A stretch of 64,000 bases of DNA, from positions 62,001 to 126,000 of the forward strand of contig NZ_LQAQ01000090.1 in assembly GCF_001583495.1 (NCBI RefSeq). The letters run 5' to 3'. This document shows, piece after piece, positions 35,623 to 62,760 of the stretch. Position 1 is the stretch's first letter. Every line of letters starts with the position of its first letter. A program made the translations under genes and the position numbers. The notes beneath the pieces are model-generated. The model was not told where the DNA came from. It was given only the letters and a program-made list of their open reading frames with translations, and made no database searches. Source of the DNA: Flammeovirga sp. SJP92. GTDB taxonomy: Bacteria; Bacteroidota; Bacteroidia; Cytophagales; Flammeovirgaceae.

Positions 35623-36141
35623 ATGATTTCTATACTGACTGAGTTTTTACAAAACGAACTAATTGATCTAATTTCAACATCAGGAAAAAATGTTAAGGTT
35701 CATGTAGGTCCCATTATTGGAGCTGAAGGGGAAGTGCATGTTATGAATGCTGCAGGTGAGTCTTTACTGCTAATTAACTTGATTAATTTATCAGAAGAGA
35801 TTTATGGCACCGTCAAGATGCAACCTAATGCTACTGCCTTGAATTTGAAGTACATGTTTTCCGTTTCCAATAATGACAATTACTTGGAATCCTTAAGCAT
35901 TCTATCGGATGTTATTGCTTTTTTTACTGCAAACCATACTTATACACCTGAAAATGGTCCTGGTATTGAAGGTTTAAGACAGATGAATTTCAAGATGTTT
36001 AACATGGAAGATAAAGATCTTTCAGGTGTGTTTATTAGCATGGGTATGAAAAAGATACCTACTGTTTTTTACGAGTGTAGAATGGTGACTATCAAAAATG
36101 CAACCACTGCACCAATAGGAGGAAGTTTAGCCGGCTGGTAA
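35623..36141 (+). CDS. DUF4255 tail terminator/cap protein (Pvc16-like)
   Basis: A 172-residue DUF4255 protein, the family that caps the distal end of sheath and tube in contractile injection systems (Pvc16/Afp16). The family look is plain: ILTEFLQNELIDLI, then VHVMNAAG, LLLINLINLSEEIY, ALNLKYMFSVSNNDNYLESL, and LSGVFISMGMKKIPTVFYEC. It is the first gene of the CIS locus, whereas Pvc16 is last in the Photorhabdus order, although a leading DUF4255 gene is common in Bacteroidota. Expected cytoplasmic during assembly. Confidence 0.88.
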   Translation: MISILTEFLQNELIDLISTSGKNVKVHVGPIIGAEGEVHVMNAAGESLLLINLINLSEEIYGTVKMQPNATALNLKYMFSVSNNDNYLESLSILSDVIAFFTANHTYTPENGPGIEGLRQMNFKMFNMEDKDLSGVFISMGMKKIPTVFYECRMVTIKNATTAPIGGSLAGW

Positions 36142-36155
36142 ACATAATGTAAATC

Positions 36156-37013
36156 ATGGCATCATTACAAAAAATAACTTCGATACGTTTCCTGCCTGTA
36201 CTGAGCTTAAAAACAAACTTTTCAGGTTTCGATACTGATATTCCTTTTTTTGATATTAAGCCTCTAAACAGTACTGAAAATCTTTTAAGGGAGATTGGTG
36301 CAATCCATCGACCTATTGATAATCAATGGCAAAGCAGTATTGCACAAGGAGACATTCAAAGGAGCCTTTTGATTTTAGAACAATTGGATGATGAATACCT
36401 TTATTTTTCCGTTTCCTACAAATCAATAGAAAGTTATTACTTGGCAGATTTTCCATTAGAGAATATGGAGGATACCCTTTTTCAGGGAGAAATTGTTTTT
36501 GACAAGAAATCAGCTCAATTACAATTTAATCAGGCCTTGACTACGAGTAGTAAATTGAAATCTTTTGATCAGATTGGTGCTCATGAGTTACCAGTGCAGT
36601 ATGCTCAACTTCAGTCAATTTTTGCTATTGTTAAACTAAGTAAGAAATCTTTTGTGGATTGTTTAACGCACCTGGAAAAGACATACAAACCTTGGGTGGT
36701 TGATTTAGCAATCAATAGTCGAAAATTAAAATTCAAGTATGTTATTCAAAAACCAGTATTTGAAAAATATAAGCTTTTAGTTCCGAAAGGAGAAAAAGAA
36801 TATAAGCAGATTATAAATGAGGGGAAATTGGAGTTTATTTCTTCTGTAACCACAAGTGCTTCGCCATTGGTTCTCAAAGGGAGACAATTGCAGTTAAGTG
36901 TTTTGATGGAGGGAGAATGGAAGGTTATCAAACAAGCTTTGCCATCACCTACGACAGGGAATTTAAACTTTGATCCAAAAACAAAAGAACCTCAATGGAT
37001 AATGAATATGTAG
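36156..37013 (+). CDS. CIS-locus protein of unknown function
   Basis: A 285-residue soluble protein without signal peptide or membrane span. No domain recognised. The N-terminal third is strand-rich (TSIRFLPVLSLKTNFSGFD), and FSVSYKSIESYYLADFPLEN with later RQLQLSVLMEGEWKVIKQAL look like beta structure. It sits 14 nt after the DUF4255 gene and 126 nt before the sheath gene, so it is likely to act at the cap end or as an assembly factor. The position hints at a second cap or adaptor protein. Confidence 0.55.
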   Translation: MASLQKITSIRFLPVLSLKTNFSGFDTDIPFFDIKPLNSTENLLREIGAIHRPIDNQWQSSIAQGDIQRSLLILEQLDDEYLYFSVSYKSIESYYLADFPLENMEDTLFQGEIVFDKKSAQLQFNQALTTSSKLKSFDQIGAHELPVQYAQLQSIFAIVKLSKKSFVDCLTHLEKTYKPWVVDLAINSRKLKFKYVIQKPVFEKYKLLVPKGEKEYKQIINEGKLEFISSVTTSASPLVLKGRQLQLSVLMEGEWKVIKQALPSPTTGNLNFDPKTKEPQWIMNM

Positions 37014-37139
37014 TATTTCAATGGGTTAAAAAACTAACGGTCATTTCTTCAATCCAAGTGATGGCAACTTCTTCCCAATGCAAATGCTAACTATTATACA
37101 GCAGTTAATTTTTTAACGAAAAACAAAACAATTGTCATC

Positions 37140-38624
37140 ATGGCTATTAGAATTGCAACGCCGGGTGTTTACATTCAAGAGAAGAATGCTTTCGGCAGCT
37201 CAATTGTAGCTTCGCCCACAGCTATTCCTGCTTTTGTTGGATACACTGAGAAAGCAGACAAAAATGGGAAACCATTACAAAACGTTCCAACCGTGATCGA
37301 TTCTTTAGATGCTTTTGAAAAGTTATATGGTAGAGCTTGGGTGCCTACATATGCTCTTCAAGAAACAACAGCTTCTGAATCAGATATTAAAGTTGGTGAT
37401 AAGAAATATGAGCTGTTCACAGCTGAAGATAGATATTTCTTATACGATAGCTTACGCCTTTTCTTTACAAATGGAGGTGGTAAAGCTTACATCGTTTCAG
37501 TTGGAGTTTACGGAGAAGAAGTCGATAGTGATAAAATCATTAGAGGTATCCGTACTTTAAAGACTGCTACTGAACCTACACTTCTTGCTATTCCAGATGC
37601 AGTAGCTTTGGCTGCTCAAGCATGTGCTGGAGTACAACAAGAGATGTTACAACATTGTGAAGCTGATGATAACAGATTCGCTGTACTTGATGTACAAGAT
37701 GGTTTATCAGCACGTTCATATGATGAAGAGGATGCTATTGATAACTTCAGAAATAACCTTGGTAAAGTAGGATTGAAGCATGGTGCTGCATACTACCCTT
37801 GGTTAAACGCTACTGTAGTATCTGATAAAGAATTCTCTTATGTTCACTTTGATTCAGTTGAGCAAATTGTTGAAATCTTAACAGACGAAGCAGAGTTATT
37901 GTACGATAACGACAGAAAGAAACAAGAAGCAGCAACTGAGATTCAAGGTTTATTGGAGGCAGATGGTTATAACGCTGATTTACATCAGACATTAAAATCG
38001 ATTTCTCCTACTTACAAAGCGTTGATGGTTGCTTTGGCAAATAAACTTAACGTATTACCTCCTTCAGGAGCTATTGTAGGTGCTTATGCTAGAGTTGATG
38101 CTGTTCAAGGTGTATGGAAAGCACCTGCAAACGAAGGTTTAGCAGGCGTAGCATCTCCATATGTTTCTCTAACAAACGAAGATCAGGAAGACCTTAACCT
38201 TACTGTTGGTGGTAAGTCTGTAAATGCTATCCGTTCTTTCGCAGGAGAAGGAACAGTAATTTGGGGAGCAAGAACTCTAGATGGCAACTCTCAAGATTGG
38301 CGTTACATTAACGTTCGTAGAACAATGTCATTTATTGAGGATTCAGTAAAAGCTAGTGTGAAAAGCTATGTTTTTGAGCCTAACACACCAATGACTTGGG
38401 TAGCTGTTAAAGGATCAATCGATGCTTTCCTAACTACACTTTGGAATCAAGGTGCTTTGGTTGGTACTAGCCAGTCTGATGCATTCGTTGTAGACGTTGG
38501 ATTAGGATCTACAATGACACAAACTGATATTTTAGATGGTATGATGAAAGTAAGTGTAAAAGTTGCTATCTCAAGACCAGCTGAATTTATCGTATTGACT
38601 TTCCAACAACAGTTACAATCATAA
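37140..38624 (+). CDS. Contractile sheath protein
   Basis: A 494-residue sheath subunit of the phage tail sheath family (Pvc2/Afp2-like). The N-terminus AIRIATPGVYIQEKN is the standard TPGVYIxE start. FVGYTEKADKNGKP, FFTNGGGKAYIVSVG and the C-terminal INVRRTMSFIEDSVKASVKSY, FLTTLWNQGALVG are conserved sheath text. The codons are strongly biased, like gap, pointing to high expression, as expected for a structural protein made in hundreds of copies. Only one sheath gene is present, where Afp/PVC have three. Confidence 0.96.
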   Translation: MAIRIATPGVYIQEKNAFGSSIVASPTAIPAFVGYTEKADKNGKPLQNVPTVIDSLDAFEKLYGRAWVPTYALQETTASESDIKVGDKKYELFTAEDRYFLYDSLRLFFTNGGGKAYIVSVGVYGEEVDSDKIIRGIRTLKTATEPTLLAIPDAVALAAQACAGVQQEMLQHCEADDNRFAVLDVQDGLSARSYDEEDAIDNFRNNLGKVGLKHGAAYYPWLNATVVSDKEFSYVHFDSVEQIVEILTDEAELLYDNDRKKQEAATEIQGLLEADGYNADLHQTLKSISPTYKALMVALANKLNVLPPSGAIVGAYARVDAVQGVWKAPANEGLAGVASPYVSLTNEDQEDLNLTVGGKSVNAIRSFAGEGTVIWGARTLDGNSQDWRYINVRRTMSFIEDSVKASVKSYVFEPNTPMTWVAVKGSIDAFLTTLWNQGALVGTSQSDAFVVDVGLGSTMTQTDILDGMMKVSVKVAISRPAEFIVLTFQQQLQS

Positions 38625-38644
38625 TTTTTAAACGAGAATAAGAA

Positions 38645-39106
38645 ATGGCACAAGAGCTAGAATATCCAATTCCAAAGTTTCGCTTCACTGTAGATTTAGG
38701 TGGAGAAGAAGTTAGTGCTCAAGAAGTTACTGGCTTAGAATCAGAAGTGGAATTTATTGAATATAGAACAGGTGATCATCCAACAGACGTTAAGATGAAA
38801 GTTCCTGGCTTACAAAAAGTGAGCAACATTACTATTAAAAGAGGTCTTTATAATGGTAATAATTATCTATTTGATTGGTTCCAGCAAGTAAAAGATGCTC
38901 GTAATGAGAATGGATCTTTTGAGGAGCACAAGCGTCTAGTAACAATTACTTTGATGGATACAATGGGTAACCCTGTGTTCAAATGGACTTTAACTAATGC
39001 TTTCCCTGTGAAACTTTCAGCTCCAGACTTGAATGCCGAAGATAACGGTATTGCAATTGAGACGATTGAATTAGCACACGAAGGCTTGATGCAAGAAATC
39101 GCTTAA
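38645..39106 (+). CDS. Inner tube protein (Pvc1/gp19-like)
   Basis: A 153-residue tube subunit of the phage T4 gp19/Pvc1 family. Family text: YPIPKFRFTVDLGGEEVSAQEVTGLESEVEFIEYR, MKVPGLQKVSNITIKRGLYN, and TLTNAFPVKLSAPDLNAEDNGIAIETIELAHEG. It is 20 nt after the sheath gene and uses the same biased codons. Hexamers stack to make the rigid inner tube driven out on contraction. Confidence 0.95.
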   Translation: MAQELEYPIPKFRFTVDLGGEEVSAQEVTGLESEVEFIEYRTGDHPTDVKMKVPGLQKVSNITIKRGLYNGNNYLFDWFQQVKDARNENGSFEEHKRLVTITLMDTMGNPVFKWTLTNAFPVKLSAPDLNAEDNGIAIETIELAHEGLMQEIA

Positions 39107-39315: not shown

Positions 39316-39495
39316 ATGGAAGAAAGTAACAAAAAAGTGAGTTTATCATTCACGTTAGAGGAATTACAGTTGATAATAGGAGGGTTAGGAAAGCTTCCAT
39401 TTGAGAAAGTATACCAGCTTATTGGTAGAATCAATGCAGAAACCAACCTTCAGTTATTGGAGGAAAAACAAAAAGAGGAGATCGATAATAAGTAA
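39316..39495 (+). CDS. 59-residue CIS-locus protein
   Basis: A short protein starting at 39316: MEESNKKVSLSFTLEELQLI, then IGGLGKLPFEKVYQLIGRIN and AETNLQLLEEKQKEEIDNK. Its stop codon shares one base with the start of the next gene (TAATG), a sign of translational coupling and of a real gene. It looks alpha-helical and acidic and could be a small structural or assembly factor in the place of Pvc6. No family recognised. Confidence 0.65.
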   Translation: MEESNKKVSLSFTLEELQLIIGGLGKLPFEKVYQLIGRINAETNLQLLEEKQKEEIDNK

Positions 39496-42158
39496 TGAGT
39501 GCGAAAGAGGATTTAATACCATTTGATATAGTAAAAGAGGGTAACCCCTATGTACTATTAAATGAAGCAAAAAAGTTTTTAGCGACACTTCAAAATGAGA
39601 AGTGGACGGACTTTGATACTCATGATCCAGGTGTGACTTTATTAGAATATTTGTCAACTGGGATGACTGAGATGAGTATTCGTGCTGCTTCAGGTATTGA
39701 AAACTACCTTACTTATGCTCCTTATAAATCTGCAATTCTAACACAGGAAGAAGCTTTTTCTGTACTTCCTGTGACGATGAATGACTTGCGAAAGGTATTG
39801 ATCGATAAATTTGTGGAAATCGAAAATATTTGGATTGAACCAGTTTCTTCAGATGTCACTTCTTTTGAAGGGCAATATCAACTCATTGTAAAATTTAAAA
39901 CTCAATATCAAGGTAGAATTGATGAGGAAGTTTTATTGGACAATATTCTGGAACATGCGCAGCAATATAGAAATTACTGTGAAAAAGTAATGAGTATCAC
40001 TACTGCTAAAGAAACAAAAGTAGTAGTGCAGGCAGATATTGAAATTGTTACAGATGTAGCTGTAGAAGATGTTTTTGCGAAAACACTTTATGGGCTCAAT
40101 CGATTTTTTTCTCCGCAAGTGGTGATGTCTTCTTATGAAGAACTCATTGGACAGGATAAAACTACTTCTAAAATATTTGAAGGACCTCTTTTAGGCAGGG
40201 GTTTCATTCAAGAAGAACAATTACATGATAGACAGTCTTCAATTTTAACTTCTGCAGTGATCAGAACCTTAATGGAAATTGAAGATGTTGTTGGTGTAAA
40301 AAACTTAAGCTTACTATCAGAAGGGATAAAAGAAAATTCTCTTTTGAAACTTGAAAATGCAATACCAATTTTTGATGAAGATGATATACAAAGTATTCAC
40401 TTTTTGAAAAATGGAATTCTAATCACACAGATAGATTTTGAAAAGGTATATGCATTATTGGATCAATTAAAAGCTTCAAAAGAAGGTTTGTCAAAAGGGA
40501 ATAAGAGAAGAAAAACAACGTCTGTTATTTCAAAAACTAACCCTATTCCTAATAAATACCTAAAATCATTAAACCTAAAAGAAATGTTTCCTACAGTGTA
40601 TGGCGTAGGAAAATTTGGTCTAACTAGAGGAGCTACTTCAGAAAGAAAAAGAGCAGTCGACCAATTTAAGACATTCATCAATTTTTTTGAAAACCAAAGC
40701 AATGAGTTTTTTGCTCAGCTGTATGACCTTCCTAAATTATTTTCAGCGAAAGGTCTGGTTTCAAATGATGATCTAACATACAGTGAACAAGGGTTTTTAA
40801 AATCAGCTCATTTCAATAATGACAAGAAGAAAAATCGAATCCTTGATTACCTAATAGGTGTACATGGCGAAAAATTTGATAACGAATTGATCAGTTCATT
40901 TACACCTTATCACTCTCAAGATGAAATAATACAACGTCTGATCTTTTTTAAAGCCTATTTTTTAAGATATATACCGTTGTTACTTAGTTCAAAATCAAGT
41001 GTACAAAAAGTAAATTCATCTTTGGGAGATTGGGGTATTACTCCATTGCACCTACGCCTAATGCTCTTTACAGGAGTAGGTAAAAATAATGACGCATCTA
41101 TTGCTTTAGATCAGCCTCCACTTTTATTTGATTCAAATAACTCACTTTTTGAATTTGAGGAATGGAATACACAAAGAGCAATTAAAGAATATGATACTTT
41201 AGAGGGACATACATTTGATTGTATTGATACAGATCTTATAGTAAACCCTCGTAAGGCAGAACAACTTATCAAAGATCATCTGACTTTAGATTTGATGCAT
41301 CAGTGCATTTATTCTAAAAACTTATATGTGGTCAAAACAGTGGATAAGCAATATGGAATTGTTTATCACAGTGCTGAAAAATCCAATTATCTACAGTTGG
41401 AAACGTATTCTACTTGGGATGAAGCTGAAAGAATGTTAGTAGCCCTTCACAAGAGAATATTAAGACTTCATGATGAATTTGAAAGTTTTCAAATTGTAGA
41501 GCACCCAAACCTTCAACCGTCAACAGAGGAAGAGTGTTTTGGTGTTTATGTTTTGAACGAAGAACAAGAACATATTTTAATGAGTGATGTTTCTCTTGAT
41601 TTTGAAAAAAGAGAACAGCTTATGAAACTTTTACCTACCTATTTCACTGAATTTGATCGCTTTGATGTAGAAAGATTGAATGACGGTAATTTTAGAATGC
41701 TTTTCAAAGTTCCTGAATTTGGATTGAACTGCATAGGGATGTATGATGATGAATCTGTTCAGAAAATTCATAAAGATAAAGAGCGGTTATTCAATTACCT
41801 CTCTGATAAATTTGATACAGTCAGTTTAGACCGCAAAGTAAGCAGACATATTACCTTGGATAATGCTTCTGTTCAACAACAAGATGGTGTTGAGCGTGTT
41901 GTTGAGCAGTTTTTCAACTTCACAATTTCCATTGTTTTTCCTTGTATTTCTCATCGATTTAGAAACAATGAATTTAAGGTAATGATGCAAAATCTTTGTC
42001 GTGAGGAAACTGCAGCTCACATTCAAGTTAATACAAAGTGGCTTGAGCCAGAACAATATTACACTTTTGAATCTTACTTGTCTCAATTGAAATCAAATGA
42101 TATTTCAAAAGAAGATCAAGTAATACTAAGGGACAATATGCTATCACTTTTACATTAA
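39495..42158 (+). CDS. Baseplate wedge protein with J-like N-terminus (Pvc11-like)
   Basis: An 887-residue baseplate component. The N-terminal segment KWTDFDTHDPGVTLLEYLSTGMTEMSIRA (residues about 36-65) is the hallmark of the large CIS baseplate proteins (Pvc11/12, TssF/gp6-related; usual text WTDxxxxDPGxTLLEL). The rest is poorly conserved, with strand-helix mixtures. It starts inside the stop of the preceding small gene. It should join the second large protein at 51121 in the wedge triangle that holds sheath and spike together. Confidence 0.8.
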   Translation: MSAKEDLIPFDIVKEGNPYVLLNEAKKFLATLQNEKWTDFDTHDPGVTLLEYLSTGMTEMSIRAASGIENYLTYAPYKSAILTQEEAFSVLPVTMNDLRKVLIDKFVEIENIWIEPVSSDVTSFEGQYQLIVKFKTQYQGRIDEEVLLDNILEHAQQYRNYCEKVMSITTAKETKVVVQADIEIVTDVAVEDVFAKTLYGLNRFFSPQVVMSSYEELIGQDKTTSKIFEGPLLGRGFIQEEQLHDRQSSILTSAVIRTLMEIEDVVGVKNLSLLSEGIKENSLLKLENAIPIFDEDDIQSIHFLKNGILITQIDFEKVYALLDQLKASKEGLSKGNKRRKTTSVISKTNPIPNKYLKSLNLKEMFPTVYGVGKFGLTRGATSERKRAVDQFKTFINFFENQSNEFFAQLYDLPKLFSAKGLVSNDDLTYSEQGFLKSAHFNNDKKKNRILDYLIGVHGEKFDNELISSFTPYHSQDEIIQRLIFFKAYFLRYIPLLLSSKSSVQKVNSSLGDWGITPLHLRLMLFTGVGKNNDASIALDQPPLLFDSNNSLFEFEEWNTQRAIKEYDTLEGHTFDCIDTDLIVNPRKAEQLIKDHLTLDLMHQCIYSKNLYVVKTVDKQYGIVYHSAEKSNYLQLETYSTWDEAERMLVALHKRILRLHDEFESFQIVEHPNLQPSTEEECFGVYVLNEEQEHILMSDVSLDFEKREQLMKLLPTYFTEFDRFDVERLNDGNFRMLFKVPEFGLNCIGMYDDESVQKIHKDKERLFNYLSDKFDTVSLDRKVSRHITLDNASVQQQDGVERVVEQFFNFTISIVFPCISHRFRNNEFKVMMQNLCREETAAHIQVNTKWLEPEQYYTFESYLSQLKSNDISKEDQVILRDNMLSLLH

Positions 42159-54100: not shown

Positions 54101-54660
54101 TGTTAATTGTCATTATTCCAAAATCTGAGGAAAAATTTCCAATTGCATCTAATAGTTTATTACAAAGAGTGGAACGTTTTCTGAAACATATTATTTCACC
54201 TCATGTGAAATTCAGTATCTGTTCTCCAATCTATGAAACAGTGAAAATAAATGTAGCTATTTCATTAAAAGAAGGTTACACACAAGGCTTTTATTTGGAT
54301 GAGATTAAGCAACAACTGACACAATACATTGATACCATATCATTGTCAAATGCAAACCGATTGGTGCTTGGAGGTAAACTTCACCTTTCTGATATATTAA
54401 GTTACTTAAAAACAATTTCTTATGTGGATGGGATTAAACATCTTTCCATGGTACATTTAGTGAAAAATGAGAGGAAATATAAATTAATAGACACAGCTCA
54501 AGAAGATTATTCTGATAGCTTTATTGAAGCATCAAAACCCTGGAGTGTACTTACTTCTGCGGCAAGTCATGAAGTGTATATCAACATTCCAAATAATGAT
54601 AAAGCAGGTATCAATAACCTAGAATTAGGAGTGGATCTAATTGTTAATTCATATAGCTAA
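51121..54660 (+). CDS. Large baseplate protein, J-like C-terminus (Pvc12-like)
   Basis: An 1179-residue baseplate protein. The C-terminal region contains the best signature, FINRVSETIKHRNRPVTTWD followed by YERILLTEFHEINQVICIPV, which matches the xRxSExLRHKxRxVTxWDYExLVLxxFPxI text of large CIS/T6SS baseplate proteins. Further on, SPIYETVKINVAISLKEGY and SYLKTISYVDGIKHLSMV match gp47/J-like endings. The first 350 residues are helical and not conserved. It is 11 nt after the tape measure gene. Longer than Pvc12 by about 200 residues. Confidence 0.82.
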   Translation: MIYNGTSQDSRELSQLVDKGFQLNDVDLRDILTNNFQYLEEVGQEARDYWYTILFSDFSVLAELKELDISVFQKKNNIIFQKVRQFNRPQKKLKFLKQGVFLVYELLNYYHKWIKNYSKKQLFDSEIFLNINTTLNAISTQLDLEFLCLIEDEVLHDVLVKVQRLIREIFQFIDYSFEEYSVEKKDHAVVAQICQRLNIRLIDNLFLMSGNSERYFNELINLSTNQPQIDLIMAYQHIYQYPQKMLNSFPNRYLNLYFNSLLDEKRKEEKVDFTYLSFKLNDGVRYARIPSKTKFIAGSDALRKNILYQLDYPVVVNTSEVSHLDLSNVSYKHIGKKFPLKVITAIRQQEAEIKEGEFINRNLWDNQESSALPVSFCICDQILQLENGDREIIFNFQFKQTSMDKLTQLISNVREITGWSGRQLFNNIFGDIFNVYFSSENGWVKVQKVIFLTSKYSPNSLSFKVIIKANEPSVCKPNKSIPSSDMFDHAVFKFTLNTETYLYGYSFLSDLVLDRVVIQTYVNGYTGFKAYNQQGQLGTDIPYNAWGNQPKQGDFLVLGSTEIFFKPIEQLSLRINWFNSPMHPNGFTGYYENYELEELKNSNFKIQIDQLKQGKWANLHERNMFSNIRYNPDGEVEDIGGISKQTDLNDINFQPPITIEEAQKEDLAGFSNYAKNGYLKLTISSPEIGFGHLVYPQLLTAQVKNGMSINPFKKKKDVELPSPYIPVIEKVEADYIAKTSIILDNKMMKEESSTKLFYGVGEIIVPVKDDNPKLLPAINEGIILDLGVDNSVEGDIVSFLFQIRSTTDQEIQTSQHQIEWEVLHNNKWEKIAGANILNDETECLSKTGMISIKVPEHSTDHQLKPTGKLWLRIYIPNVIENYAVIERVYSKVVKVGLILPDDREHYDFGKELEAQSIFRSNTKLPGIRSIEQPLPSFGGKRAEESGAFINRVSETIKHRNRPVTTWDYERILLTEFHEINQVICIPVSEENRSLLIVIIPKSEEKFPIASNSLLQRVERFLKHIISPHVKFSICSPIYETVKINVAISLKEGYTQGFYLDEIKQQLTQYIDTISLSNANRLVLGGKLHLSDILSYLKTISYVDGIKHLSMVHLVKNERKYKLIDTAQEDYSDSFIEASKPWSVLTSAASHEVYINIPNNDKAGINNLELGVDLIVNSYS

Positions 54661-54665: not shown

Positions 54666-56519
54666 ATGTTACAAACAAATAAAAAATACAAAATACTATT
54701 ACTGATGCTCTTCCTTGTTGCTTCATTACCAATGTATGCTCAAGAACAAAAAGAAGAAAAAGAAGAGGAGAAAAAAGAGCAGAAAGGTCTTAAGGTTATG
54801 CTTCAAGACTACGTAAAACAATTTAATGAAGAACCTCCTGCTGAAGAGGAAAAGGCCTCATCAAAAGAACAAAAAGAAGCGGAAGAGGAAAAAGCAGCAG
54901 AAGCTAGTACGGATTCTACAAATACAGCTCCTGAAGATGCTGTTTTAGTAGAAGAGAGTGTAGCGGAAGAAGATTCAATTGCTTTGGCTATTGAGGCATT
55001 AGAGCAAAAAGCGTTTATTGATACTTTACAGATGAAAAACCGTTTAAGAGAAGTAAAGAAAAATAAGATAAAGGGAGATTTTACAGAATCTGAATGGCAG
55101 AAGAAAATGAACCTAGTTAGCAATAAATCTTTGGAAGGTAACTATGATTTATTGGATAATGTGGAAGTATTTGGGTGGCATCCGTACTGGATGGGTAAAG
55201 GTTATGATTCATATAATTTCTCTTTATTGAGCACAATCGCATATTTCTCTTATGAATTGAATCCGGTAGATGGTAGTTATTATAGTATTCATGATTGGGA
55301 AACTACAGCCTTGATTGACTCAGCGCATTTACACAATTGTAAAGTATTACTGACGGTGACCAATTTTGGCTATAATAACAATAGAACATTTTTAAAGAAT
55401 AGAAACGAACAGCAACAGGCCTTAATTAATAAATTAGTGACATTGCTTTTTCAAAGAAATGCCGATGGTGTTAATATAGATTTTGAAAATATCCCTAAAG
55501 AGCAAAGACAAAATTTCACCAACTTTATTATCGATTTATCGAACTCATTAAGAAAGTCGAACCCTAAATTCAAAATATCACTGACAATTCCTCCTAAAGA
55601 TTTTAACGGAGTATTTGATATACAGAGTTTAACACCATATGTAGATCAATTTATTGTGATGGGATATGAGTTTTATGGTCAGAACAGTGCAATTGCAGGT
55701 CCGGTTGCACCAATTGAGAGTGGTGATTTTTGGTGGGAGTTTAATATTGAACGAAGTGTTTTAGAATATAAAGTAGATGGAATTCCTTCTGATAAATTAA
55801 TTTTAGCCTCTCCATTATATGGTGCAGAATGGATCACAGAAGATTTAACTTATCCTTCCAAAGCAAGTCATTTTGTTGGTTACTTGACTAAGAAACAAAT
55901 TGATGGGAAAATTGGAGGAATTCCTGTACAGCGAGAAGCCTTAAGTGGAAGTGCATTTCATGTCTACAGAGATGAATGGGGCAGGTATCATCAAATATGG
56001 TTTGAGGATAGTGTTACTCTTCAGAAAAAAATTGATCTAATCAAAAAGCATGAATTAAAAGGAATTGGCTTCTGGGCTTTAGGTTTTGATAATGGCAATC
56101 CAGAAATGTGGATTAAGGTAAAGGATAATTTCACAGTTTTACCTGAAAATGCACCGTCTGGATTTTCAATGGGTAAGACCAGAAGATATATCAACTATGC
56201 ATTACGTATTATTTCAAACCCTAAAACTATTCTCACAAACCCAAGCATGTTGATGTACATGTTTGGAGGTGTGATGGGAGTTAATTCATGTTTCATCATA
56301 TTTTTTCTTTCTTTCAGATATAGGCTGACAAAATTAATGAAAGTAGCCAGTTCGACTTTGATTTTAGTCTTTACAATCATTGGTCTGGGCATATTTATGA
56401 TCACTTATGACTTTGTAAGTGCAAAGGAAGTAATACTCATGATATGTGGGATACTCCTTGGAGGGTTAGCCTTATTTTTCCTTAGTTATCGATTTTTCAT
56501 CAAAAAAGAATTGCCTTAG
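54666..56519 (+). CDS. GH18 glycoside hydrolase with C-terminal membrane spans
   Basis: A 617-residue protein: signal peptide (ILLLMLFLVASLPMYAQ), an E/K/A-rich linker (residues about 25-90), a GH18 domain (about 160-490) with FGWHPYWMG, the catalytic motif DGVNIDFE (about 266-273), VMGYEFYGQN and GFWALGFDNG, and three hydrophobic spans at the end (about 530-610). It thus faces the periplasm and is held in the inner membrane. YaaH/chitinase-type GH18 enzymes cut GlcNAc-containing polymers, including peptidoglycan glycan. A role in opening the wall for a trans-envelope injector is inferred from context. Residues needed for activity (DxxDxDxE as DGVNIDFE) look intact apart from N for the second D, a known variant. 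Confidence 0.85.
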   Translation: MLQTNKKYKILLLMLFLVASLPMYAQEQKEEKEEEKKEQKGLKVMLQDYVKQFNEEPPAEEEKASSKEQKEAEEEKAAEASTDSTNTAPEDAVLVEESVAEEDSIALAIEALEQKAFIDTLQMKNRLREVKKNKIKGDFTESEWQKKMNLVSNKSLEGNYDLLDNVEVFGWHPYWMGKGYDSYNFSLLSTIAYFSYELNPVDGSYYSIHDWETTALIDSAHLHNCKVLLTVTNFGYNNNRTFLKNRNEQQQALINKLVTLLFQRNADGVNIDFENIPKEQRQNFTNFIIDLSNSLRKSNPKFKISLTIPPKDFNGVFDIQSLTPYVDQFIVMGYEFYGQNSAIAGPVAPIESGDFWWEFNIERSVLEYKVDGIPSDKLILASPLYGAEWITEDLTYPSKASHFVGYLTKKQIDGKIGGIPVQREALSGSAFHVYRDEWGRYHQIWFEDSVTLQKKIDLIKKHELKGIGFWALGFDNGNPEMWIKVKDNFTVLPENAPSGFSMGKTRRYINYALRIISNPKTILTNPSMLMYMFGGVMGVNSCFIIFFLSFRYRLTKLMKVASSTLILVFTIIGLGIFMITYDFVSAKEVILMICGILLGGLALFFLSYRFFIKKELP

Positions 56520-56522: not shown

Positions 56523-56726
56523 ATGTCTGTAAAAATAAAAGAGCTAAACATTAAGATCGAAATCAAGAAAGATTTCCTTACTCAAGAACAGCTGATGGAT
56601 CAATTCATTCAAAAGCTATCTATTGACAAGCTTCCTGTAGAATTTATTGAAAGCCTTGCAGAGAAGTGTAAAGAAGAAATTGATAATGATCAAAGAATAT
56701 TAGGAACCAAATTTGGCAGGTTTTAA
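56523..56726 (+). CDS. DUF5908-like small CIS protein
   Basis: A 67-residue protein whose start MSVKIKELNIKIEIKKDF matches DUF5908 (typical MPIEIRELxIK), a small family found next to spike genes in CIS loci. The rest is helical and acidic. It is 3 nt after the GH18 stop and 12 nt before the spike gene. Its role is unknown; a chaperone or plug of the spike is possible. Confidence 0.7.
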   Translation: MSVKIKELNIKIEIKKDFLTQEQLMDQFIQKLSIDKLPVEFIESLAEKCKEEIDNDQRILGTKFGRF

Positions 56727-56738: not shown

Positions 56739-58523
56739 ATGACAAAGAAAAGCGAATTATATCATACCCGAACCAAAGTAACTATTGAAGCAAACGGTAG
56801 TGAGTTGGAACTTTATTCTTATCAGTTGAAAAACCTGAGCATAAATTATTCTATTAATGATACTCCTTATTGTAGTATTACATTGATGAATTCAAGAAGG
56901 TCAGTAGATTTTTCATCTGTACAAGATTTATATCCATCTAATGAAGTGAAAATTTACGCCGAAAATGATTTTGTAGAAAGATCACTAATATTTGAAGGTG
57001 TAGTTTCTAAGTATGGCACTCAAAGCAAAGGAAGAAAATTTATGACGGTGATTGAAGTACTGCATCCGGTATTTCGCTTAAAGCGTAGAGTCATCAATCG
57101 TTTATTTGCATTGAGCTTACCAGAGGTGGTAGATAAGATTTTTAGCGATTATGGATTAACAGTCGATAATCAAATGGATATTGAAGAAGAGGAGTCAGAC
57201 AGTAGGATAACTCAATATCAACAAAATGATTTTGAGTTTGTCTTATCAAAAATAAAGCAAGCAGGCTGTATGTTTTGCCCTTCCGCAGAGGAATTGTCTG
57301 TGAAGGATGTGCTGGGGGATGGAACTCCTGTAATGGAAATAAACCCAATTCGAACTACTCGCTTTAATGTGTTTATGGATATTGAGGATCTGCATGATAT
57401 CGCTAATATCAGTACATACAATGTTGAGGATATGATAATAGAACAAGAATCCTCAGAATCTGTCTCTTTTGAAGCAGGAGATACTAGTGTGGATGCGGCA
57501 ACAGTATCTGGTGCGTTAGATATTGGTGCTCAAGAGGTCATTTCTTTTGGGCAAGAAAACACAGCAATCCGTAAGAAATGGCTGACACATAAAATTCAAG
57601 AAAGTAAGCTGGGTAAAGTAAAAGGTGGAATAACAATAGAGGGAACTGTTGATGTAAAACCAGGTGACTTTGTTACCATTGTTGAGGCAGGTTCAATACT
57701 TGAAGGAGACGCATTTGTATATGGAGTTGAACAGCACCTTGAAAATGACAATTGGAAAACCACTTTACTTTTAGGGGTTTCAAGTGATGAAGAGCAAGCA
57801 AGCCAACAACCTACTTTAGATACAAATTTTGCTATTACTGGATTACAGCATGGGATTGTAAAGCAAGTTCAAGATAGCGGTGATCAACATGCTACAGATC
57901 AGTATTTAGTACAAGTAGAATTGCCCCTTTTAATGCAAACAGATTTGTCTAATGATGTGGAGCCTTTGGTATGGGCAAGATTGGCCACTTTTTATGCTGG
58001 AGAATCTCATGGTACTCTTTGGTTACCTGAATTGGAAGATGAAGTTGTAGTTGGTTTTTTAGGTGGTCATCCTGATAATCCTGTCATTTTAGGATCAATA
58101 TTCAAAAACTCAGATGAGCACCCGCATATTGGTACTGAAGGTTATAAGTCAATTGTCACTAAGAGTAATTTAGAGTTGGCGTTTGATGACGAAAACGAAT
58201 TAATACATATGCATTCAGAAAGTACGCATGTGACTTTAGATCAAGCCAATGGTATACTTCATTTGAAAGTTACAGATGGAGATACTGTCTTGACTGAATG
58301 TATATTGGATAAAGAAAATAACATTAATATCAATAGCCCAGATGGTGAGGTTAATATTAATGCAGATAAAATAAACCTAACAGCAGCTTCAGAGATGAAG
58401 CTAGAATCGGCAAGTAGTCTGTCAGTAGATGGGCAGGAAGTTACATTGGCTTCACAAGCTAAAATGGGAGTAGAAGCCGGTACGATGTTAGAATTAAAAG
58501 GATCACAAGTATTTATTAATTAA
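56739..58523 (+). CDS. VgrG-like spike protein (Pvc8-like)
   Basis: A 594-residue spike with the gp27-gp5 layout. The N-terminal gp27-like part includes KVTIEANGSELELYSYQLKN and IYAENDFVERSLIFEGVVSK. The OB-fold (about residues 365-460) has GIVKQVQDSGDQHATDQYLV, VWARLATFYAGESHGTLWLP and EDEVVVGFLGGHPDNPVILG, the best-conserved VgrG text. The end is a beta-helix-like repeat (GEVNINADKINLTAASEMKL, VDGQEVTLASQAKMGVEAGT). No C-terminal toxin extension is present. The PAAR gene follows 12 nt on. Confidence 0.93.
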   Translation: MTKKSELYHTRTKVTIEANGSELELYSYQLKNLSINYSINDTPYCSITLMNSRRSVDFSSVQDLYPSNEVKIYAENDFVERSLIFEGVVSKYGTQSKGRKFMTVIEVLHPVFRLKRRVINRLFALSLPEVVDKIFSDYGLTVDNQMDIEEEESDSRITQYQQNDFEFVLSKIKQAGCMFCPSAEELSVKDVLGDGTPVMEINPIRTTRFNVFMDIEDLHDIANISTYNVEDMIIEQESSESVSFEAGDTSVDAATVSGALDIGAQEVISFGQENTAIRKKWLTHKIQESKLGKVKGGITIEGTVDVKPGDFVTIVEAGSILEGDAFVYGVEQHLENDNWKTTLLLGVSSDEEQASQQPTLDTNFAITGLQHGIVKQVQDSGDQHATDQYLVQVELPLLMQTDLSNDVEPLVWARLATFYAGESHGTLWLPELEDEVVVGFLGGHPDNPVILGSIFKNSDEHPHIGTEGYKSIVTKSNLELAFDDENELIHMHSESTHVTLDQANGILHLKVTDGDTVLTECILDKENNININSPDGEVNINADKINLTAASEMKLESASSLSVDGQEVTLASQAKMGVEAGTMLELKGSQVFIN

Positions 58524-58535: not shown

Positions 58536-58802
58536 ATGAAACCTGCAGCAAGATTAGGAGATACATACGAGTGTAAAGCTCACCCTCCGGCACCACCATT
58601 AGTTTTACCATTAGTGCCTAATGCTACTGTTTTTATCAATAAAATACCTGCAATGGGAGTACAGCCATTACCATGTGGGTGCCAGCCAGTATTAACAAGC
58701 AATACGGTATTTATTGAGGGTAAGCCAGCAGTTAGGGCAGGAGACTTATTGCCTGCTGGAACAATATTGAAAGGGAGTAATGATGTTTTAATTGGAGATT
58801 AG
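58536..58802 (+). CDS. PAAR-repeat spike tip protein (Pvc10-like)
   Basis: An 88-residue PAAR protein, the sharp metal-binding tip on the spike. It begins MKPAARLGDTYECKAHPPAPP and has the repeats VFINKIPAMGVQPLPCGCQPV and VFIEGKPAVRAGDLLPAGT. Histidine (KAHPP) and cysteines (CGC) are in place for metal binding. No effector domain is attached, so cargo, if any, must be in the tube lumen or elsewhere. Confidence 0.93.
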   Translation: MKPAARLGDTYECKAHPPAPPLVLPLVPNATVFINKIPAMGVQPLPCGCQPVLTSNTVFIEGKPAVRAGDLLPAGTILKGSNDVLIGD

Positions 58803-58806: not shown

Positions 58807-59373
58807 ATGGAAATAACAATAATACTGGACGATAACAAAACGAAAATTATCTTAAAAGCAATTACAAATGTAAGTACTAGTGTATCAGCTTCTGGGTTAA
58901 AACCAAAACCTACTAATCCTGCTAGTGGTAAGAAAGGAGAAAGTTCAGGTAGCGATGATGATATAAAAGATGGTCCAGATGTTTCACGTATCAACAAGAA
59001 TTTCTCATTTACTGCATATTTAGATGATACAGGTATGCTTTATGATAAAGTTGATAATGATCCTGATATTAGATCAACGATAGATTTGATTCAAGATGGT
59101 TTGATGAATGTGAAAGACAGAATACCTAGGGTTGTAACCTTTGCTAGTGATACCATTGGAATTGCATCTGATCATAAATTCCTTATGACATCATTCAATA
59201 CCACATTTGAATTGATGAGTAATGAAGGAAAACCATTGAGAGCTAAAGTAGATTTTTCTTTCGCACAAGAATTTGAGCCTAGCGGGGGTTCTAGCAGTAC
59301 TTCTAAAGATGAATCTCAAAACTCTCAATCTTCTACACAAAATAGTCAAGAAAGTTTTAATGGTAGTGTTTAA
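58807..59373 (+). CDS. Pvc7/gp53-like baseplate adaptor
   Basis: A 188-residue protein. ATG 58807 (MEITIILDDNK) is preferred to an in-frame TTG five codons upstream that would overlap the PAAR gene. Mid-protein text NKNFSFTAYLDDTGMLYDKV and the end TTFELMSNEGKPLRAKVDFSF resemble Pvc7/LysM-adaptor proteins, where a strand is followed by xFxxDGxPLRAxV. A serine-rich tail (SGGSSSTSKDESQNSQSS) replaces the LysM domain. Position after the PAAR gene supports a spike-tube-baseplate adaptor. The assignment is by pattern. Confidence 0.6.
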   Translation: MEITIILDDNKTKIILKAITNVSTSVSASGLKPKPTNPASGKKGESSGSDDDIKDGPDVSRINKNFSFTAYLDDTGMLYDKVDNDPDIRSTIDLIQDGLMNVKDRIPRVVTFASDTIGIASDHKFLMTSFNTTFELMSNEGKPLRAKVDFSFAQEFEPSGGSSSTSKDESQNSQSSTQNSQESFNGSV

Positions 59374-59374
59374 A

Positions 59375-59962
59375 ATGAAGAGTAAAATTTTAAAAATTAG
59401 TCTTTTCCTTTTTCTATTAGGAAGTTTTCAAAATGCAATGTTTGCTCAAGAAAAAGAGGGTATTGTAGAAAAGGTGAGAGCTTTTGTGCCAAGTTATGTT
59501 GGAGAAAATGATAAAGATGCTTACCAATTACAAGCCATCAATCACCATAAATTGTGGTTTTTTATATTAGATGATAAAAAGTCATTGCATGTTTTGACAT
59601 TTGAAAATGATTCTCTTCAAAAAACTTCAGAATTTTTTGAAATGGGACTTTTCAAAATAGTAGATAAATATGGTATGAGCTGTGAAAATAAAATTGCACC
59701 AGTCAATGATTTAACTCTCAAACCCTACTATAAATTTAAGAAAAAGGCAAGCAAGGATTTTGAGAGACTTTTGTATTTAGAATATGGTTATGTTAAAAAC
59801 TCATTTTTTAGAAAAGTAGGAAATGTTATCATTTTTCCATTTACTTTTTTCTTAAGTAATGAAAGCTCTTATGATAAAGCCATCAAAAAAATGCAAAAAG
59901 TGGAGAAAAATATTCAGAAACAGCAAAATGCCTATCAGTCTATAGCTTCTCCTTTGCTTTAA
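59375..59962 (+). CDS. Secreted CIS-locus protein
   Basis: A 195-residue protein starting at ATG 59375, one base after the previous stop. The signal peptide is KILKISLFLFLLGSFQNAMFAQ. The mature part is basic and has a hydrophobic stretch (KVGNVIIFPFTFFLSNESS, about 149-167) followed by a lysine-rich helix. Probably periplasmic or membrane attached. No family recognised. Together with the next gene it looks like an envelope part of the injector. Confidence 0.65.
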   Translation: MKSKILKISLFLFLLGSFQNAMFAQEKEGIVEKVRAFVPSYVGENDKDAYQLQAINHHKLWFFILDDKKSLHVLTFENDSLQKTSEFFEMGLFKIVDKYGMSCENKIAPVNDLTLKPYYKFKKKASKDFERLLYLEYGYVKNSFFRKVGNVIIFPFTFFLSNESSYDKAIKKMQKVEKNIQKQQNAYQSIASPLL

Positions 59963-59973
59963 AAACTAACATT

Positions 59974-61059
59974 ATGTTGAAGAATTTTAAAACTATACTA
60001 TTACTTCTCTTCAGCTTATTACTACAGCAAACTGTAATGGCACAGATGGATTGTGCCGAAAAAATGGTGAAAGCTCAAAATGCTTTTGATAATGGTAATA
60101 TTGAAGAGGTGGATGGTTTATTGAGGGATTGTCTGAAAGGCGGTTTTAATGATAGTCAGAAGGAGAAAGCATACAAACTGTTAGCTCTTTGTAATATCTA
60201 TCAGTTAAAGAAAACAGAGGCGGAATCAGATATTAAAAAGTTATTGAAAACGAATCCTTTTTGTACTGTAGATGAGGAAAATGACCCTCAAGAATATATT
60301 GAATTACTTAATAATTTCAACAGACAGCCTTCTTTTTATTATGGTGTAGAAGCTGGCGGTAATATGAGTATGGTTGAAGTTGACCAAACTTATGTTATCA
60401 CACAAGATGTAGAATCAAGTAATTACAATGAGCAATTTGGATTTGAGGGAAACATCAACTTTGGTATGTATCTCTATCATTGGATTGATTGGGGTGCATT
60501 TGCCGGCTTTAGAATGTCGACGGTTGAGGTAAGAGATAAAAATGTTTTGGGCATATTGTCAACAACTTATCAAGAACAACAACAGTTTTTCAAGTCAGGT
60601 TTGATGATCAATATTAATTTCAGAAAACACCCTAAGAACATTTATCTGACACATGAAAACGAAAAAGATATCACCACTTCACCATTGTATCCATTTATTA
60701 GATTATCGGGTAGCTATAATCAGCTGTTAAGTGCAGAGGCAAGTATTAGAGGAACTTATAATTTAGAAGGGAGTTCAGAAACAACCTCAGATCAGCGATC
60801 TGTAATGGATAAGAGATTTAAACAAGAAATCCGAGCTGGAGGTGGTATTGGAGTTAAGAAACAATACAAAAGAGGTGCATTTTACTTTTTGGTCCAATAC
60901 CAATATGCATTCCATGATTTAATCTTAGAGTCAGAACGCTATAAGGGAGATGTCTTCCTTAATTCCTATGCTTTTATTGATAATGATTACCGTAATCATC
61001 TCATCACATTTGAGTTTGGTTATCAGCACTACTTCTACAGATTCAAAAAGAAAAAATAA
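59974..61059 (+). CDS. Outer-membrane beta-barrel protein with TPR-like N-terminus
   Basis: A 361-residue protein: signal peptide (TILLLLFSLLLQQTVMAQ), a helical N-domain (about 25-115) with the TPR-like text ALDNGN-type AFDNGNIEEVDGLLRDCLKGG and KEKAYKLLALCNIYQLKKTE, then a C-terminal barrel of about eight strands (FYYGVEAGGNMSMVEV, FGFEGNINFGMYLYHWIDWG, FYFLVQYQYAFHDL) ending HLITFEFGYQHYFYRF with an aromatic terminus, as BAM substrates have. It should sit in the outer membrane with the TPR domain in the periplasm. This layout occurs in Bacteroidota motility and secretion loci. Link to the CIS is by position. Confidence 0.78.
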   Translation: MLKNFKTILLLLFSLLLQQTVMAQMDCAEKMVKAQNAFDNGNIEEVDGLLRDCLKGGFNDSQKEKAYKLLALCNIYQLKKTEAESDIKKLLKTNPFCTVDEENDPQEYIELLNNFNRQPSFYYGVEAGGNMSMVEVDQTYVITQDVESSNYNEQFGFEGNINFGMYLYHWIDWGAFAGFRMSTVEVRDKNVLGILSTTYQEQQQFFKSGLMININFRKHPKNIYLTHENEKDITTSPLYPFIRLSGSYNQLLSAEASIRGTYNLEGSSETTSDQRSVMDKRFKQEIRAGGGIGVKKQYKRGAFYFLVQYQYAFHDLILESERYKGDVFLNSYAFIDNDYRNHLITFEFGYQHYFYRFKKKK

Positions 61060-61061
61060 AT

Positions 61062-61796
61062 ATGGCATTATTAGATAGAAATACATTAAAAACTTTTTTC
61101 AACCAAGGGAAATTACCATCTCAGGAAAACTTTCATGACTTGATAGAATCTAGTGTAAATAAACTAGATGATGGCTTGTCTAAAAGTATGGATGAAGGTT
61201 TAATGCTTTCTCCAGTTGGTGATACTAATAAGTTGGTGAGTTTTTTCAAGAACATTGAAGATCGTAGCCCAATCTGGAGTTTTACCACAGGACAGGGCAG
61301 TAGAGAATTACATTTACAGAATCTTCAAGGTGAAAGTATTATGACTTTTGGTCAAGAAGGTCAAGTGGGTGTCAATTGTCCACAGCCTCAACATTCATTA
61401 GAAGTGGGAGCAACCCTTGGTGCCAAGGGAAGAGTAGGAACACTTTATAAAGGCAGTGTGGAAGCTAATGGAAAATGGCATCCAATCATTGAAAATCTTA
61501 ATGGGTGTCATGCTTTTGAAATTGTGGCAGGGGTAGGAAAAAAGAAGACAGGTAAATATGCTTTAGTGATTGCGCAGGCAATCAGTACTTTTGGTGATGC
61601 TCATGATAGAATTCGAACTACCCAGGCTTACTATGGTTCCAGAGGGAATATGATTGAGTTTCGTTGGAAAGGTGAAACTTATAACTACAGATTGGAAATG
61701 AGAACAAAAGGTAATTACGAAGGTAATACTGTCGCCAACTATCATGTGATGTCACTTTGGGAAGATCAGTTTATGGACGAGTCATTTATTGAATAA
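61062..61796 (+). CDS. Fibre-like CIS protein
   Basis: A 244-residue protein. The start LLDRNTLKTFFNQGKLPSQE then NFHDLIESSVNKLDDG is a motif seen at the head of tail-fibre and adhesin-like proteins of Bacteroidota. The middle has a beta-helix-like FGQEGQVGVNCPQPQHSLEV and RVGTLYKGSVEANGKWHPII, and the C-terminus resembles a globular tip (KKKTGKYALVIAQAISTFGD). It is 2 nt after the barrel gene. It may be the receptor-binding or baseplate fibre (Pvc13 position), though it is short for that. Confidence 0.6.
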   Translation: MALLDRNTLKTFFNQGKLPSQENFHDLIESSVNKLDDGLSKSMDEGLMLSPVGDTNKLVSFFKNIEDRSPIWSFTTGQGSRELHLQNLQGESIMTFGQEGQVGVNCPQPQHSLEVGATLGAKGRVGTLYKGSVEANGKWHPIIENLNGCHAFEIVAGVGKKKTGKYALVIAQAISTFGDAHDRIRTTQAYYGSRGNMIEFRWKGETYNYRLEMRTKGNYEGNTVANYHVMSLWEDQFMDESFIE

Positions 61797-61807
61797 ATCA
61801 TACAATT

Positions 61808-62191
61808 ATGAAAAATTATACAGGTTGGAAGTTCCCTCCATCATTCAATGATAAAGGAACCGAAATAGAAATGGTGTCAGACCATATTGATATTAGAGAA
61901 AGCCTTTATATCCTTTTTTCTACACACCCTGGAGAACGCCCTGTCAATATTCATTATGGGTGTAATCTAAGACAGTTTTTATTTAAAAGGTTAACTGCTC
62001 AACTTATTCAGGATATAAAGTTCACCATCAATGAAGCCATCATTAAATTTGAAGATAGAATTGAAGTGATGGAAATATCCATTAACGAGGAAGATGAAAA
62101 AGATGGGAAATATTTAAGTATAAATATTCTTTACAGAATCAAAGAAACAGGAGAGGCAGGAGAGTTTAATTATCAAAGTGAAACACAATAG
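61808..62191 (+). CDS. gp25/TssE-like baseplate protein (Pvc9-like)
   Basis: A 127-residue baseplate wedge protein of the gp25 family. Conserved parts: GWKFPPSFNDKG, DHIDIRESLYILFSTHPGER with the EPR-like core as GERPVNIHYGCNL, and INEAIIKFEDRIEVMEISIN. The glutamate-arginine pair (here GERP) is the classic gp25 sheath-initiation feature. It is placed near the end of the locus, 11 nt after the fibre-like gene. Confidence 0.92.
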   Translation: MKNYTGWKFPPSFNDKGTEIEMVSDHIDIRESLYILFSTHPGERPVNIHYGCNLRQFLFKRLTAQLIQDIKFTINEAIIKFEDRIEVMEISINEEDEKDGKYLSINILYRIKETGEAGEFNYQSETQ

Positions 62192-62193
62192 TT

Positions 62194-62760
62194 ATGGCAA
62201 AGAAAAACCCACCAGTACGTTACAACAAGGATGAATTGAATGAATCATTTGTAGGACCATCCGTACCTGTATTAGCAGGGTTCCGGTTTAAGGTAATTAC
62301 AATAGGTAAAAAGCCCAATGGTGAGATCCAAAATTGGGATGAAGATACAATAAATACTAATCAAGCCTTTGCATCATTTCAGAGTATATCAAGGATTAGT
62401 GCTAAAATGAAGACAGAAAAAATCTCTTTATTAGGTGTCAATAACCGTCAGTTTCATGTGCACAGTGGAGTAGAATATGACGATGTAGTTTTTAAAAAAG
62501 GGATTTTATCATCAGAAATGAATCTTAGTACACCATTTTTAGCTAGTATTCAAGAGATGTCTACTACGGACTATAGAGTGAATAAGTTAAATTTAATTGT
62601 TGTGGCCTTTGATCAGAAAGATTCCCCAGTCTATGCTTTAAAATTAGGAAGATGCTTTCCAACAGCTTGGGAAATGGGAGAGTTTAATGCTGAAACAGGT
62701 GAATTGCTGATAGAAAGTGTAACCTATTCTGTGGCAACAGTTGAGGAATTGCAGATTTAA
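62194..62760 (+). CDS. Second tube-like protein (Pvc5/tube initiator-like)
   Basis: A 188-residue protein that aligns by pattern with the gp19 tube family: VLAGFRFKVITIGKKPNGEI, ISRISAKMKTEKISLLG, YDDVVFKKGIL (compare ITIKRGLYN in the main tube), and CFPTAWEMGEFNAETGELLI with SVTYSVATVEELQI (compare NAFPVKLSAPDLNAEDNGIA in the main tube). It differs strongly from the main tube, so it may be the tube-initiating ring at the baseplate. It follows the gp25 gene by 2 nt and is the last clear CIS gene. Confidence 0.65.
   Translation: MAKKNPPVRYNKDELNESFVGPSVPVLAGFRFKVITIGKKPNGEIQNWDEDTINTNQAFASFQSISRISAKMKTEKISLLGVNNRQFHVHSGVEYDDVVFKKGILSSEMNLSTPFLASIQEMSTTDYRVNKLNLIVVAFDQKDSPVYALKLGRCFPTAWEMGEFNAETGELLIESVTYSVATVEELQI

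Follow-up and report, generated by a model that had tools for sequence, protein, structure and literature searches.

A contractile injection operon of Flammeovirga that groups with type VI secretion systems of subtype iv and carries a candidate envelope-anchoring module

Introduction

The closest described relatives of the locus reported here are the contractile injection systems (CIS) known as type VI secretion systems of subtype iv (T6SSiv), for which a large trans-envelope complex has been described in Aureispira sp. CCB-QB1 and an apparently minimal anchor in Amoebophilus, which still docks (PMC11566945; this and the other published sources are cited from extracts). Aasi_0556, a Cis13-like T6SSiv fibre, is regarded as a possible aid to anchoring (PMC12210884). 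We found no answer in the literature, Lien et al. 2024 lying outside the search, to how T6SSiv cross a Gram-negative envelope without TssJLM. Here we analyzed a stretch of 64 kb (the window) within a 291-kb contig, NZ_LQAQ01000090.1, of the 8.49-Mb genome of Flammeovirga sp. SJP92. It encodes a complete CIS at 35623-62760, with 19 genes in a tight operon on the + strand and with envelope genes interleaved. Among its products are p244, a Cis13-type fibre; GH18-3TM, a glycoside hydrolase of family 18 with three transmembrane spans; and sec229, a secreted protein.

The window shares with the T6SSiv of Amoebophilus/Cardinium its sheath clade, a long tape measure and the p244 fibre, as well as the lack of TssB/C-type sheath genes: VipB/TssC (PF05943) was absent from the window's genome, the E. 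coli control being positive, and therefore no canonical T6SS sheath is present. The symbiont genomes differ in that GH18-3TM, sec229 and a Pvc15-type ATPase were not detected in them at the thresholds used; each of these is present in the window's genome, where the ATPase genes are unlinked and divergent. Extracellular CIS (eCIS), namely AlgoCIS, the Photorhabdus virulence cassettes (PVC) and the antifeeding prophage (Afp), have a homologous sheath, baseplate and spike, but their sheaths form separate branches, GH18-3TM occurs in 0 of 15 genomes having only p244-negative sheaths, and no clustered Pvc15-type ATPase was found on the window's contig at E≤1e-40, three divergent copies lying elsewhere in the genome. 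The membrane-anchored thylakoid CIS (tCIS) of Anabaena shares with the window the N-terminus of its fibre (Cis13/All3316); Cis13 itself has a membrane domain (PMC8894136), whereas p244 has no predicted membrane span. The membrane complexes of T6SSi-iii (TssJLM and the Bacteroidota complex) with MltE/TagL are alike in crossing the wall by means of a domesticated wall enzyme (PMC10781749), and differ in that the window's operon has no Tss membrane-complex family over the Pfam cut-off, the TssJLM and ClpV models not having been run genome-wide. CisA of Streptomyces (PMC12237407) and Hbor_38620 of haloarchaea (PMC11566945) are membrane proteins linked to CIS, for which a part in docking or firing has been proposed; GH18-3TM is set apart from both by their descriptions, which in the extracts mention no GH18 domain. 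Among the papers listed by our literature search, GH18 beside 'contractile injection system' turned up only in a Pseudoalteromonas symbiosis study and Flammeovirga beside contractile injection in a single paper, and nothing was found on SalCIS or 9R9H. Prediction of docked versus free CIS from relatedness alone has been described as unreliable (PMC12998442).

Results

The sheath and the tape measure are of the T6SSiv kind

In a tree of 56 sheath rows, from which rows shorter than 350 aa, the near-copies L099, L118 and L109, and L119 were omitted and in which the AlgoCIS and Afp3 rows are partial, the window sheath grouped with a support of 100/99 with those of Amoebophilus/Cardinium-like symbionts, an identity that we assigned to these genomes from their size and family, and of Saprospira, which we take to be a relative of Aureispira. 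This clade of 39 rows comprises 35 from p244-positive genomes, one p244-negative row (G119), two of G051 and the particle PDB 9r9h; besides the symbionts and Saprospira, it includes sheaths of Fulvivirga, Sporocytophaga, Microscillaceae, Roseivirga, Aureivirga and some Bacteroidales. The sheaths of AlgoCIS, tCIS and Afp3, and eCIS-like sheaths of the same order (G049, G059 and G130 among others), fell outside it. The first-pass annotation had read the machine as membrane-docked rather than free, and had named a sheath phylogeny as a check; the tree, placing the window with T6SSiv and apart from the eCIS branches, favors that reading. It does not bear out the further claim of a new CIS variant: its sheath clade places it among the T6SSiv already described, and the novelty, if any, would lie in the envelope module.

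The tape-measure model was positive in 56 of 194 genomes of the order, and the proteins were of two sorts, compact (∼450–600 aa) and long (∼900–1850 aa, often with split matches). The window tape measure (1591 aa) and those of the small, symbiont-sized genomes are of the long sort. Long tape-measure genes were also seen apart from the sheath cluster in G004 (Mb away), G062, G134, G081 and G157 (on another contig), and hence the T6SSiv genes can be dispersed across a genome. In F. pacifica (L123) and G063 the genus has a more divergent form of the CIS, which comes with a separate set of GH18, barrel and p244 genes and whose tape-measure gene lies ∼1.4 Mb off. A p244-type CIS cluster was further observed in a gammaproteobacterial record (L119, Dickeya oryzae ZYY5 scaffold2), where GH18-3TM was not found; in an earlier sheath tree it stood with Aureivirga/Roseivirga.

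Within the order, GH18-3TM was found only in genomes with the p244 fibre

We observed p244 in 45 of the 194 genomes, each of which also has a sheath, and in all 11 tape-measure-positive genomes of the symbiont family. The window p244 is 97% identical to its F. aprica counterpart, and its first 39 residues match tCIS Cis13/All3316. It is probably the counterpart of Aasi_0556; the copy in the 1.88-Mb symbiont-family genome G181, which lies apart from the sheath cluster and adjoins a gene for baseplate J, would be Aasi_0556 itself.

GH18-3TM was found in 32 of the 194 genomes, all of them among the 45 with p244 and none, with up to six candidates per genome fully scored, among the 149 without it. 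These were counted at >110 bits, a line set after the table had been inspected (lowest counted, G152 with 123 bits; highest uncounted, 78), and include G051, where no membrane tail was seen. Among the 49 sheath-positive genomes outside the symbiont family, GH18-3TM was present in 32 of 34 with p244 and 0 of 15 without it (Fisher 9e-11); this value and the co-occurrence counts ignore kinship, the 34 genomes representing 23 genera. The two p244-positive genomes without it are G169 and the 79%-complete G170. In a sample of eight Flammeovirga genomes, CIS and GH18-3TM were both present in four and both missing in four. By position, 22 of the 32 GH18-3TM genes share a contig with a gene for sheath, p244 or tape measure and are no more than about 30 kb from it. 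In the 11 CIS-bearing symbionts sheath and p244 are kept, but neither GH18-3TM nor sec229 nor a Pvc15-type ATPase was detected at the thresholds used.

Named loci led to 28 genomes, 12 of them repeating the order sample, and 26 of the 28 had a GH18 match. The 16 others gave 12 matches >110 bits (F. aprica, three Fulvivirga, Salinivirgaceae, two Bacteroidales, Marivirga, Aureivirga, Roseivirga, a Cytophagales metagenome-assembled genome (MAG) and Saprospira), two weak ones (99 and 102 bits) and two with none (the Dickeya oryzae record and Kordia, the p244 match of the latter covering only 37 residues). In the Saprospira grandis MAG (L200:5424-9470), a tandem pair of GH18-3TM genes stands immediately upstream of the Pvc16-cap-sheath genes. 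Of 395 genomes drawn from across the phylum, 71 including the window's had GH18 matches. We tested 80 of these genomes for p244 (51 GH18-positive and 29 others, with 19 weaker GH18 scorers left out) and found it in three only, at a p244-GH18 distance of 8-12 kb; in GH18 score these three rank directly behind the window's genome. The GH18 score alone was rejected as a marker, as domain-only GH18 proteins outside the order reach 337 bits in p244-less genomes; the discriminating features are the GH18 membrane tail and p244.

GH18-3TM is predicted to face both sides of the inner membrane

The protein consists of a signal peptide, a charged linker of ∼140 aa, the GH18 domain with the motif DGVNIDFE at residues 267-274, three C-terminal spans and a tail ending in KKELP. 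Its GH18 domain is closest, by sequence and fold, to the spore-cortex enzymes SleL, YaaH and YdhD; Foldseek with a modest model (mean pLDDT 59, poor at 334-359) returned SleL (4s3j) as the best match, with an E value of 8e-23. Among the 38 rows with a length of at least 500 aa (two shorter rows were omitted), 37 were predicted to have three spans, and the positive-inside rule was satisfied in all 37 three-span rows, placing the tail in the cytoplasm by prediction. Of 40 rows, including six repeat fetches, 38 carry the C-terminal signature [EDNQ][LM]P. From two sequences we had suspected a dead enzyme throughout, which is ruled out by the catalytic glutamate retained in 27 of 33 distinct rows; the copies without it are L128, L149 and L151-L154, and a structural role of GH18 may be sufficient in some lineages. 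On predicted topology, likeness to SleL/YdhD and co-occurrence with the CIS, we propose that GH18-3TM is an inner-membrane anchor and a wall enzyme.

Other envelope genes

sec229 was detected in 24 of the 194 genomes, all p244-positive and 23 of them with GH18-3TM. In 16 of these 23 it lies ≤3 kb from GH18 (13 back to back and three, all Flammeovirga, in the same direction), and in the other seven it is elsewhere or on another contig. Its predicted structure (pLDDT 69) had no PDB match at E≤0.001 and resembles no known fold; we propose it as the periplasmic part. A 161-aa secreted protein (L123:8474-8959) occupies its position in F. pacifica. The proposed outer-membrane part is a protein with a tetratricopeptide repeat (TPR)-like N-terminus and a barrel-like C-terminus (TPR-barrel), having no Pfam family over the cut-off and no PDB match. 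The barrel lies ≤10 kb from GH18 in 10 genomes (G000, G077, G118, G063, G154, G103, G142, G192, G097 and G004), and we rejected it as a CIS-specific gene, the family being present in 97 of the 194 genomes.

Among the clusters fetched, homologues of the nSTAND1-WD40 protein, which has a clear membrane span at residues 479-497, were confined to Flammeovirga, a Microscilla-like genome and Marivirga (G118, G077, G102, L113), and the lipoprotein family has three members including the window's, all in Flammeovirga. Both are probably lineage-specific regulators. The check proposed earlier, whether the envelope genes co-occur with this sheath type, comes out in favor for GH18 and sec229 and, more loosely, for the barrel, and, among the clusters fetched, against for the lipoprotein and STAND genes.

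Pvc15-related ATPases lie elsewhere in the genome

Pvc15 is the cargo loader in PVC (PMC10097599, extract). As the first-pass annotation stated for the window, no Pvc15-type ATPase was found at 20000-64000, nor in the next 34 kb, and there was none on the contig at E≤1e-40. Away from this contig, the window's genome carries three AAA+ genes related to Pvc15 (most of the profile matched, 274-285 bits), one followed by an ankyrin protein and another with a leucine-rich repeat (LRR) protein ∼4 kb on. Such a gene is directly downstream of the CIS operon in G077, and four are within ∼20 kb downstream in G118. A tree of 22 ATPase rows placed five copies from Flammeovirga, including two of the window's genome, on a long branch of their own; we therefore rejected them as plain Pvc15 orthologues and label them only Pvc15-related. 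At E≤1e-40 Pvc15-type ATPases were detected in 33 of 34 non-symbiont p244-positive genomes and 13 of 15 p244-negative sheath genomes, and in none of 11 symbionts or four CIS-less Flammeovirga; they adjoin CIS genes in T6SSiv-clade as well as eCIS-like clusters. Hence the lack of an ATPase, which had been offered as an argument for docking, is rejected as a hallmark of docked CIS, such genes being present elsewhere in this genome and in related ones.

At least eight Pvc15-type matches per genome were seen in G047, G102 and G062. Pvc15-related AAA+ genes, several of them near genes for LRR or ankyrin proteins and for large proteins of no recognized kind, were noted at L195, L196 and L197 (G000:C93, C100 and C81) and at L198 (G118, where the arrangement is repeated). 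As Pvc15 loads cargo in PVC, it may be guessed that these islands are cargo-plus-loader units.

Parts of the operon

The genes are as follows.

35623..36141, +, Pvc16-like (DUF4255) cap/terminator protein (Pfam PF14065, E 3e-12)
36156..37013, +, protein of 285 aa, its gene lying between those of cap and sheath (no Pfam match over cut-off)
37140..38624, +, sheath (PF17482, E 9e-17, and PF04984; PDB 9r9h_T, E 4e-136; tree)
38645..39106, +, tube 1, gp19-like (PF06841, E 6e-39)
39495..42158, +, baseplate protein, Cis12/Alg12-like (PDB 7aeb_A (Algo12), E 1e-26; 9rce_B (SalCis12), E 3e-13)
42171..45188, +, nSTAND1 NTPase-WD40, one membrane span, accessory (PF20703, E 4e-79; hydropathy)
45199..46332, +, lipoprotein (lipobox by eye)
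46334..51109, +, long tape measure protein, 1591 aa (PF19268, E 3e-58)
51121..54660, +, baseplate J protein, Cis11/cage-type (PF04865; PDB 9rce_A, E 5e-72; 7aeb_G, E 6e-54)
54666..56519, +, GH18-3TM (PF00704, E 9e-31; topology; co-occurrence)
56523..56726, +, DUF5908-like small protein (weak PF19265 match, E 0.37)
56739..58523, +, spike, gp27/gp5-like (PF04717, E 2e-15, and PF05954; PDB 7b5h_AJ, E 1e-41)
58536..58802, +, PAAR tip (PF05488, E 1e-8)
58807..59373, +, CIS tube/adaptor protein (PF19266, E 2e-9)
59375..59962, +, sec229, secreted protein (signal peptide by eye; no Pfam family)
59974..61059, +, TPR-like N-terminus and outer-membrane-barrel-like C-terminus (by eye on sequence and alignment)
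61062..61796, +, p244, Cis13-type fibre (match to tCIS Cis13/All3316)
61808..62191, +, gp25-like baseplate wedge (PF04965, E 7e-20)
62194..62760, +, tube 2, gp19-like (PF06841, E 9e-16)
62883..64000, cut by the window end, +, polytopic membrane protein of 1051 aa with weakly matched HEAT repeats (HEAT_2, E 2e-4, below Pfam cut-off)

All the parts named in the first-pass annotation are thus on the + strand, the small DUF5908 protein being there with a match too weak to secure its family. The 39495 baseplate protein has no Pfam match and was recognized by AlgoCIS/Pvc12 chains instead. The 285-aa family has three members including the window's, detected only in Flammeovirga, and a TssR_VWA match of E 0.07, far under the Pfam cut-off. 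The true start codons of the lipoprotein and the secreted protein are likely to be 45199 and 59375.

The operon probably extends beyond 62760 into the 1051-aa gene at 62883 (full extent L002:4884-8039), which has the same position in G118, G077 and F. aprica (L093) and homologues adjoining CIS genes in L097, L109 and G102; the L109 relative ends with a weak match resembling a cyclic nucleotide-binding domain. Directly after it (L002:8162-18250) lies a gene for a 3362-aa repetitive secreted protein with, by eye, a C-terminus like those of the type IX secretion system, and a shorter relative is upstream of the CIS in G118.

Discussion

The gene content of the operon, its sheath clade, the co-occurrence and adjacency of its genes, the predicted topology of GH18-3TM and the likeness of its GH18 domain to wall-lytic enzymes lead us to propose, with a probability of roughly 0.6, that the product of the operon is a CIS of the T6SSiv type, anchored at the inner membrane through the proposed envelope module and fired from within the cell. 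From distribution and topology we further infer, at about even odds, that GH18-3TM, sec229 and the TPR-barrel protein make up a trans-envelope complex specific to CIS of this type, that this complex is not related to TssJLM or to that of T6SSiii and has a wall hydrolase as part of its inner-membrane anchor, and that it was lost in endosymbionts having a minimal, anchor-only T6SSiv. The baseplate would dock, via p244 and the cage-type baseplate protein, onto the cytoplasmic loop and tail of GH18-3TM, whose periplasmic GH18 domain would cut or grip the peptidoglycan and so make room for a channel. sec229 would bridge the periplasm and the TPR-barrel protein would be the outer-membrane end; together the three could span both membranes and the wall. 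Upon contraction the tube would pass through the channel into a touching cell, the presumed target. The simplest account is that free-living T6SSiv forms add a wall-crossing, two-membrane module. The large Aureispira complex versus the minimal Amoebophilus anchor (PMC11566945, extract) is paralleled by GH18-3TM being present in Saprospira and absent in symbionts, a parallel of two points only, with the Aureispira genome outside the comparison.

Several observations weigh against this conclusion. Three of 38 p244-positive sheath rows (L120, L122 and L124) are outside the sheath clade and p244-negative G119 is inside it; therefore p244 and the clade coincide inexactly. The clade also contains a solved particle, PDB 9r9h (with SalCis12 in 9rce), whose mode of action is possibly extracellular. 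The p244 match of G011 covers only 37 residues with 34 bits, and if it is discounted G011 becomes a GH18-positive, p244-negative exception. The catalytic glutamate is missing in six of 33 distinct GH18 rows, sec229 was not detected at the threshold used in 10 of 34 non-symbiont p244-positive genomes, including F. pacifica, and the barrel family, as noted, is widespread rather than CIS-specific. Up to six candidates per genome were fully scored in the order and three in the phylum-wide draw; as only the best candidates were so scored, the absences are not exhaustive. Protein contact and localisation are inferred.

The main rival explanation is that the CIS is an eCIS, a released particle, and that GH18-3TM and its partners are a lysis cassette that frees it. 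The resemblance of GH18 to wall-lytic N-acetylglucosaminidases, the lysis-like set made up by a wall hydrolase with membrane and outer-membrane proteins, and the solved structure of a clade relative (9r9h) would all suit it. We nevertheless consider it unlikely, since GH18-3TM occurs in none of the 15 genomes with only eCIS-like, p244-negative sheaths, which would be most in need of lysis, the window's sheath clade includes the cell-anchored T6SSiv lineage, and a three-span tether with a conserved cytoplasmic tail suits docking more than it does a soluble lysin. It is also doubtful that, in a T6SSiv-type CIS, GH18, sec229 and the barrel are only auxiliary, serving wall remodelling or self-protection, while the real anchor consists of p244 and the cage protein as in Amoebophilus. 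The 11 symbiont genomes that keep sheath and p244 without GH18-3TM, sec229 or ATPase speak for such a division, as do the docking of Amoebophilus (PMC11566945) and the proposal of Aasi_0556 as an anchor aid (PMC12210884), as far as the extracts of both go; yet GH18-3TM is kept in 32 of 34 non-symbiont p244-positive genomes, and a function confined to the periplasm would leave its conserved cytoplasmic tail without evident purpose. It is very improbable that the envelope genes encode effectors or were swept into the operon as unrelated passengers: the lipoprotein is likely to be such a case and STAND in part, and the barrel family is widespread, but GH18-3TM and sec229 co-occur genome-wide with T6SSiv-type CIS, even from other contigs.

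The docked T6SSiv-type CIS with its own envelope module thus remains our preferred reading. GH18-3TM together with p244 offers a candidate rule for separating docked from free CIS in Bacteroidota genomes, and the distribution suggests that symbionts use a stripped-down version of T6SSiv. If the proposal is true, the module would represent a further, independent way of anchoring a contractile machine across two membranes.

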